Shown here: positions 39,469-41,148 of the stretch, in pieces
Layout of the letters: the number at the start of each line of letters is the position of its first letter
How positions within the stretch are numbered: position 1 is the stretch's first letter
Position numbers and translations under genes: made by a program
NCBI GenBank assembly: GCA_029287535.1
Contig: JARFQY010000134.1
Location: 1 to 46,219, forward strand
DNA: 46,219 nt
Reading direction: 5' to 3'
Origin: Filomicrobium sp.
GTDB taxonomy: Bacteria > Pseudomonadota > Alphaproteobacteria > Rhizobiales > Hyphomicrobiaceae
Notes under the pieces: generated by a model
What the model was told of the DNA's origin: nothing
Databases searched by the model: none
What the model saw: the letters and a program-made list of their open reading frames with translations, nothing else

Positions 39469-39726
39469 ATGCCGTCTGAAAAAACGCAGAGCCTTCAAGA
39501 CACCTTTCTCAACCACGTACGCAAGCAAAAAACGCCACTAACAATTTTCCTGATCAACGGCGTTAAATTGCAAGGTATCGTCACTTGGTTCGATAATTTC
39601 TGCGTCCTGCTGCGGCGGGACGGGCATTCCCAGCTCGTCTACAAACACGCGATTTCGACGATCATGCCGGGCCAGCCAGTCAATCTCATGGATGGTGAAA
39701 CCCCAGAAGAAGAACCGAACGCATAG
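39469..39726 (+). CDS. hfq: RNA chaperone Hfq
   Basis: An 85-residue Hfq that forms hexameric rings pairing small RNAs with mRNAs. The Sm1 motif ([20 protein letters not shown]) is followed by [19 protein letters not shown] and the Sm2 motif [14 protein letters not shown]; a short acidic tail ends in TPEEEPNA. The stop is TAG at 39724-39726 and the following hflX frame is in the same phase. Confidence 0.97.
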
Positions 39727-39735
39727 GGTCAGCGC

Positions 39736-41148
39736 ATCGATAAACGAGTTAGAAACGACGCTAGCAACAACACTAAAGATCTGAATCTCTCGCTACAGGC
39801 TGAGCGTTCGAGGCCTGCCTCGCGCGCAATCGTCATCGTTCCCGTCTTACCGCGTTCTACCGATACGGGCTCCGCTGGCAGTACGCACCAAGCCCACTCG
39901 CCCGACGAGAGACTGGCCGAGGCCGTCGGCCTGGCAAATGCCATCGAGCTCGATGTTGTTATTGCCAAAACCGTTCCCGTTACCAAACCCAAACCTGGCA
40001 CGCTGTTTGGGACCGGAAAGGTCGCGGAACTTGAAGAACTCATCTCGGAAGAACTGATTGAACTTGTCGTGGTTGACCACTCAGTCAGCCCGGTCCAACA
40101 GCGCAACCTGGAGCAAGCCTGGAATTGCAAGGTTTTGGACCGGACGGGTCTCATCCTGGAAATCTTCGGCGAGCGCGCACGCACCCGAGAGGGTCGACTG
40201 CAGGTCGAACTTGCCCACCTGTCCTATCAGAAGGGCCGCCTTGTGCGGGCTTGGACACACTTGGAGCGCCAGCGTGGCGGCGGCGGCGGCGGCGCCAGTT
40301 TCGTCGGGGGCCCGGGGGAAGCGCAGATCGAACTTGACCGGCGCATGATCCAGGCCCGCATCGATGCCATCCGAAAGGAGCTCGCGCAGGTCGTCAAAAC
40401 CCGCGAGTTACATCGCGCCGGTCGCCGCAAAGTGCCTTACCCGATTGTCGCCATTGTCGGATACACCAACGCCGGCAAGTCAACGCTATTCAATCGGCTG
40501 ACAGGCGCCGATGTGCTGGCGCAAGACCAAGTCTTTGCCACGCTCGATCCCACCATGAGGGAAGTCAAGCTACCATCCGGACGCCGTGTCATCCTGTCGG
40601 ATACCGTGGGCTTCATCTCTCACCTGCCAACCATGTTGGTGGCCGCATTTCGCGCCACGCTCGAAGAAGTCATTGAGGCCGACCTCATCTTGCATGTCCG
40701 CGACATTTCTCATTCGGAAAGTGAGGCCCAGCGCCGCGATGTCGAGGAGGTACTCGATGGTCTTGACGTCAACCTGCAGAGCGCCGATCAGCGCATCCTG
40801 GAGGTTTGGAACAAGGTCGACCGTCTATCCACCGTCACCCGGCAGGAAGCCATCACTGCCGCGCGCTTCAATGACCAAAGCCCCGTATGTGTCTCCGCAC
40901 TCACAGGTGAAGGAATCGATGAACTCCTGCAATCAGTCGATGAGCGCCTTGGAGTCGATGACACGTATCTGACGTTGCTTCTGCCGCCCCACGAGGGCCA
41001 ACTGCTAGCCTGGCTCCATGAGAATGCCGAGGTTCTAGACCGCTCGGTCGATGAACATGGAGAAACACGCATCAATGTCCGCATAGCTGCAGAGAATCGC
41101 GGCCGCCTCTTGGCCCAGCTGCAAACCCGCCAGCTGCGTATTGAGTAA
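39736..41148 (+). CDS. hflX: Ribosome-associated GTPase HflX with no standard start codon
   Basis: A GTPase that splits or rescues stalled ribosomes. Conserved HflX sequence is readable from about 39838 onward (RAIVIVPVLPRS, DERLAEAVGLA, GTGKVAELE), then VDHSVSPVQQRNLE, GRLQVELAHL, a Gly-rich GGPGEAQIELDRR, and the G domain with GYTNAGKST, DTVGF and NKVD. Between the hfq stop (39726) and 40068 there is no in-frame ATG, GTG or TTG; GTG 40069 would remove over 100 conserved residues. The best candidate is ATC 39736, seven bases after AGGG, giving 470 residues. A non-AUG start, hfq stop readthrough or a base error are the options. Confidence 0.85.
   Translation: MDKRVRNDASNNTKDLNLSLQAERSRPASRAIVIVPVLPRSTDTGSAGSTHQAHSPDERLAEAVGLANAIELDVVIAKTVPVTKPKPGTLFGTGKVAELEELISEELIELVVVDHSVSPVQQRNLEQAWNCKVLDRTGLILEIFGERARTREGRLQVELAHLSYQKGRLVRAWTHLERQRGGGGGGASFVGGPGEAQIELDRRMIQARIDAIRKELAQVVKTRELHRAGRRKVPYPIVAIVGYTNAGKSTLFNRLTGADVLAQDQVFATLDPTMREVKLPSGRRVILSDTVGFISHLPTMLVAAFRATLEEVIEADLILHVRDISHSESEAQRRDVEEVLDGLDVNLQSADQRILEVWNKVDRLSTVTRQEAITAARFNDQSPVCVSALTGEGIDELLQSVDERLGVDDTYLTLLLPPHEGQLLAWLHENAEVLDRSVDEHGETRINVRIAAENRGRLLAQLQTRQLRIE

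Follow-up and report, generated by a model that had tools for sequence, protein, structure and literature searches.

The window, by which we mean the whole stretch of 46,219 nucleotides analysed here from a Filomicrobium genome, carries hfq and, immediately downstream on the same strand, hflX. The junction between the two genes comprises the following features.

39469 to 39726, forward strand: hfq, 85 amino acids, with its TAG stop at 39724-39726 (open reading frame and Pfam Hfq domain PF17209, E = 1e-32)
39725 to 39728, forward strand: Shine-Dalgarno-like AGGG, overlapping the hfq stop and 7 nt before the AUC, with an anti-Shine-Dalgarno duplex of -3.3 kcal/mol
39736 to 39738, forward strand: AUC, the proposed start codon of hflX, with predicted N-terminus fMet-Asp-Lys-Arg-Val; relatives have a matching AUA, AUC or AUU
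39736 to 41148, forward strand: hflX coding sequence counted from the AUC, 470 amino acids (open frame; TIGR03156 at 441.8 bits; Pfam N-terminal, middle, GTPase and C-terminal domains)
39829 to 39843, forward strand: first conserved block of HflX (IVIVP), defined by alignment of relatives, which any start must precede
40069 to 40071, forward strand: GTG, the first standard start codon in frame, inside the GTP-bdg_N domain and not the start

The hflX gene of the window is intact. Its product belongs to the HflX GTPases, matching TIGR03156 over the full length (441.8 bits against a cut-off of 216.75), contains the Pfam domains GTP-bdg_N, GTP-bdg_M, MMR_HSR1 and HflX_C, and has E. coli HflX as its best solved relative. 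An earlier note on this DNA had made four observations on how the gene begins, all of which the sequence bears out. hflX follows hfq in the same reading frame, with only the TAG at 39724-39726 in between, and this frame stays open through to the TAA at 41146-41148. It contains no ATG, GTG or TTG before the GTG at 40069, which is codon 115 after the hfq stop. Between 39727 and 39870 these triplets are missing from every frame, the earliest being at 39938. Finally, AGGG lies seven bases upstream of the ATC at 39736. The 114 codons from the upstream stop to the first ATG, GTG or TTG are the longest such run among 36 long, non-overlapping open frames of the window (the runner-up has 65, and most have fewer than 25), and a run of this length has a probability of about 0.008 at hflX's own frequency of such codons.

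HflX genes and their upstream DNA were gathered at the levels of genus, family and order, each species being represented by a single genome, usually a draft; the same-genus loci match Filomicrobium records CP051234.1 and DAOUZE010000318.1. Comparison of the junction in close relatives, which the earlier note had suggested as a check, gave AUA, AUC or AUU and never AUG. All seven sampled same-genus relatives that have the junction carry ATA or ATC at the matching place, six of them in the ATA form with ID[KD]. The sequences are ATA GAC AAG in L007, L008, L010 and L181, ATA GAC AAA in L009, ATA GAC GAT in L011 and ATC GAC AAA in L014, next to ATC GAT AAA in the window, and most of these junctions have AGG or AAGG shortly upstream. 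The genome that contains the window is a draft in 379 contigs, and a sequencing or assembly error turning ATG into ATC had been among the options of the earlier note. However, ATA or ATC stands there in all same-genus relatives, including the single-contig genome G001. With AUA, AUC or AUU, and never AUG, at the same place in relatives, the base error fails as an explanation; we reject it as hardly credible.

One species of the genus (G003; L007/L036) provides a natural insertion at the junction. About 320 nt lie between the hfq stop and the hflX leader, and the sequence TTAAGGTAGCACC ATA GAC AAG has been kept, including the AAGG. Among the same-genus loci, the extra DNA (L036:2663-3012) was seen in this species only. 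The persistence of AAGG and AUA GAC AAG despite the insertion led us to reject obligatory coupling to hfq, so that translational coupling, which had also been proposed, is not needed in that form. Another early proposal was that readthrough of the hfq stop, or frameshifting, produces an Hfq-HflX fusion. Ribosomes in the window would have only a TAG to cross for this, as both genes share a frame, but in G003 they would meet further stops within the intervening 320 nt or so. Moreover, when the family is compared, the AUA, AUC or AUU codon (hereafter AUH) takes every possible phase with respect to hfq (frames 0, 1 and 2 at 13, 13 and 27 loci, respectively). The frame is thus not fixed, and the differences among relatives rule out a fusion as a conserved mechanism; for the window itself we consider it very improbable.

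Beyond the genus, the equivalent codon is AUA, AUC or AUU in most of the family. It usually lies 5-25 nt past the hfq stop, behind a Shine-Dalgarno-like sequence, and Asp is often the next residue. The forms found in many genera include ATC GAC GAT, ATC GAC GAA, ATC GAC CGC, ATA GAC GAC, ATT TCT CAA, ATT ACC GAA, ATC AAC CGC and others, and no ATG was found at the matching position among the sampled same-genus and family junctions. Any ATG, GTG or TTG is lacking between 40 nt before the hfq stop and the conserved block in 20 of the 71 distinct family junctions; AUH candidates were assigned to 53 of the 71 by an automatic rule and to 46 by hand. In several relatives an ATG or GTG is also present a short distance ahead of the block, and for these an AUH start is not the only choice.

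The codon tests used the first AUH located 2-50 nt past the hfq stop, picked blind to the Shine-Dalgarno sequence and to the second codon. ATA is over-represented at this codon (11/52, against 42/1303 internal Ile codons, P = 2e-6), GAC or GAT follows it more often (26/52 against 192/1297, P = 7e-9), and the anti-Shine-Dalgarno duplex is stronger (-4.7 against -3.0 kcal/mol, P = 2e-9); all three P values ignore the relatedness of the species and for this reason exaggerate the significance. The Shine-Dalgarno sequence of the window is modest in strength (-3.3 kcal/mol), yet positioned as in relatives. From the AUH to the conserved block, 11 independent pairs read in the hflX frame showed 50, 46 and 102 differences at codon positions 1, 2 and 3 (pN 0.17, pS 0.40), and by this substitution pattern the stretch is evolving as coding sequence. 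The third base of the AUH itself changed at least ten times among A, C and T, and never to G, on a quick HflX tree that has many weak branches and on which codon states were assigned by hand.

Translation might nevertheless begin further in, for instance at CTG 39781 or GTG 40069, with the preceding stretch acting as a leader. CTG is apparently used in the family genera g6 and g4, which makes a CTG start conceivable for this lineage. On the other hand, CTG 39781 has neither a Shine-Dalgarno sequence (+1.3 kcal/mol) nor a counterpart in other species, and was rejected on these grounds. GTG 40069 was rejected as well: GTP-bdg_N spans codons 61-147, a start there would lose 54 of its 87 residues, and a codon placed inside the N-terminal domain cannot start a normal HflX. 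The coding signal between the AUH and the block also argues against an inner start, which we regard as unlikely.

Codon usage, Shine-Dalgarno strength, the third-position substitution bias and the natural insertion between hfq and hflX all favour initiation at AUC 39736. Both this start and the conservation across relatives of starts other than AUG are supported, at the level of comparative sequence analysis. The rare AUC start is hence the favoured one among the four options of the earlier note, given the conserved AUH, the Shine-Dalgarno sequence and the coding signal. We think it probable that hflX is translated from AUC 39736, and that this weak start, of the kind sensitive to IF3, holds HflX below the co-transcribed Hfq. 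In such a scheme hfq and hflX would form a unit transcribed together, with hflX in second position, and ribosomes would initiate at the AUC using the AGGG that overlaps the hfq stop. The initiator tRNA would pair with AUC at two of the three bases, making initiation weak, and the HflX yield would be a small fraction of that of Hfq from the same transcript. Because IF3 discriminates against AUC, AUU and AUA start codons, HflX output should follow the IF3 level, rising under a shortage of IF3 and falling under an abundance, in the manner of the gene for IF3 itself.

That gene, infC, had been put forward by the earlier note as a point of comparison, and aptly so, since in the window's genome infC, too, begins at an AUC. 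It reads ATC CGC CGC after AAAAGGAGAAATGCC (L308, G000:C369, near 313), and AUC, AUU or AUA was present at the expected infC start in all 27 infC loci examined by tblastn. The infC AUC of the window genome lies behind AAAAGGAG. In common with the genes of the infC kind, which start at AUU, AUC or AUA, hflX has no usable ATG, GTG or TTG, an AUH conserved in place, a Shine-Dalgarno sequence and coding from the AUH on. The likeness to IF3-autoregulated infC thus covers the class of start codon (AUU, AUC or AUA), the conservation of this class across many species and initiation led by a Shine-Dalgarno sequence. Conversely, hflX encodes a ribosome-splitting GTPase, so that any control would be cross-control instead of autoregulation, its Shine-Dalgarno sequence is weaker, and its start is found where hfq ends.

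The rest of the order offers a wider view of hflX starts. In 91 junctions outside the family with hfq upstream, scanned between 13 nt upstream and 45 nt downstream of the hfq stop, we found 60 TTG, 9 GTG, 4 ATG and 18 with none of these. The TTG adjoins or overlaps the hfq stop (TGATTG or TTGA) in L218, L222, L224, L229, L233 and many of L183-L294, and ATG is rare. In E. coli K-12, hflX is annotated from a TTG (L295:2673-2675), and therefore a weak hflX start is not confined to alphaproteobacteria. Our literature search found no paper joining hflX to an AUU start codon, or to a TTG start codon.

The conserved non-AUG starts point to a conserved brake on the amount of HflX, as read from the sequences. 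The plainest function for it would be to hold HflX production beneath that of Hfq from the shared transcript, and the response to IF3 would be the more interesting possibility. The AUC start may be real and yet set only a fixed, low HflX:Hfq ratio, the IF3 level having no regulatory role in practice; we give this reading slightly less than an even chance. Within the order hflX relies on weak starts of every kind (UUG, GUG, CUG and AUH), a pattern equally compatible with a requirement for low output and with a response to IF3, and UUG is outside the codons most repressed by IF3. Against a merely fixed ratio, the family codon has stayed within AUH, the class that IF3 discriminates against, through all of the third-base changes described above. 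We tentatively propose, as a less probable extension of the AUC start, that when IF3 is limiting the relaxed discrimination of start codons raises both IF3 (infC, AUC) and HflX (AUC, AUA or AUU). This would place two subunit-separating activities under one sensor, and selection throughout the order would have disfavoured AUG for hflX while letting UUG, GUG, CUG, AUA, AUC and AUU take each other's place. HflX splits 70S ribosomes, and its proposed contact site on the 30S subunit is similar to that of IF3 (PMC4770234). This likeness may make cross-control attractive by analogy, without being evidence for it.

Several known systems resemble this arrangement in part. Binns and Masters reportedly described in 2002 that E. 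coli pcnB is kept low by an inefficient AUU start. This gene shares with hflX an AUH start on a gene held low, as we infer for the yield of hflX, but it is unrelated and has no tie to an upstream hfq. Repression of non-standard starts by IF3 has been published for infC and for the GTC-start gene sigR (PMC5472188). Streptomyces sigR is similar in that it belongs to a pair of genes in which an unusual start codon keeps the product of one gene less abundant than that of the other (PMC5472188); it differs in its codon, GTC, in being the first gene of its unit, and in that the IF3 effect is demonstrated for sigR and presumed for hflX. In S. aureus, conserved AUA and AUU starts lower yield (PMC13009471). 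Those of ccpN (AUA) and cvfC1 (AUU) are, like hflX, conserved starts with a Shine-Dalgarno sequence and a lower yield (PMC13009471), although the Shine-Dalgarno sequence is extended in S. aureus and the genes are unrelated to hflX. Finally, hfq-hflX of E. coli has the same gene order and a weak hflX start; its UUG, however, is an accepted start codon, lies 75 nt past the hfq stop, and the genes that follow are hflK-hflC.

To our knowledge, the well-characterised genes with AUU, AUC or AUA starts are few, namely infC, pcnB and a handful more. hflX would add to them a ribosome-splitting factor, conserved in this respect across much of a family. The weak hflX starts across the order suggest that the HflX level is held down at initiation. 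With hflX among these genes, a connection between IF3 and HflX would become a concrete hypothesis open to testing. Gene prediction programs that recognise no starts beyond ATG, GTG and TTG should truncate or misplace the N-termini of HflX in these genomes, as has been reported for sigR and infC in streptomycetes (PMC5472188).

Some lineages show other solutions at the same junction. Genus g11 of the family uses TTG or GTG, either of which shares bases with the hfq stop. In genera g6 and g4 of the Hyphomicrobiaceae (L035, L170, L171, L178, L034), hflX probably starts with CUG: in g6 the CTG overlaps the hfq TGA as CTGA, behind a strong Shine-Dalgarno sequence, and in g4 one species has CTG and another GTG (L033) before the same context, AGC/AGT AGA CGC AAG CGT. 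Outside the family, AUH occurs at the hflX start position in Hoeflea (ATC GAA ACT), in Martelella (ATT TCC GAC/GAT) and in a third lineage (ATA GGA ACC), the loci being L095, L098, L101-L104 and L106; L086 and L090; and L079, L082 and L083. These AUH codons possibly had independent origins.
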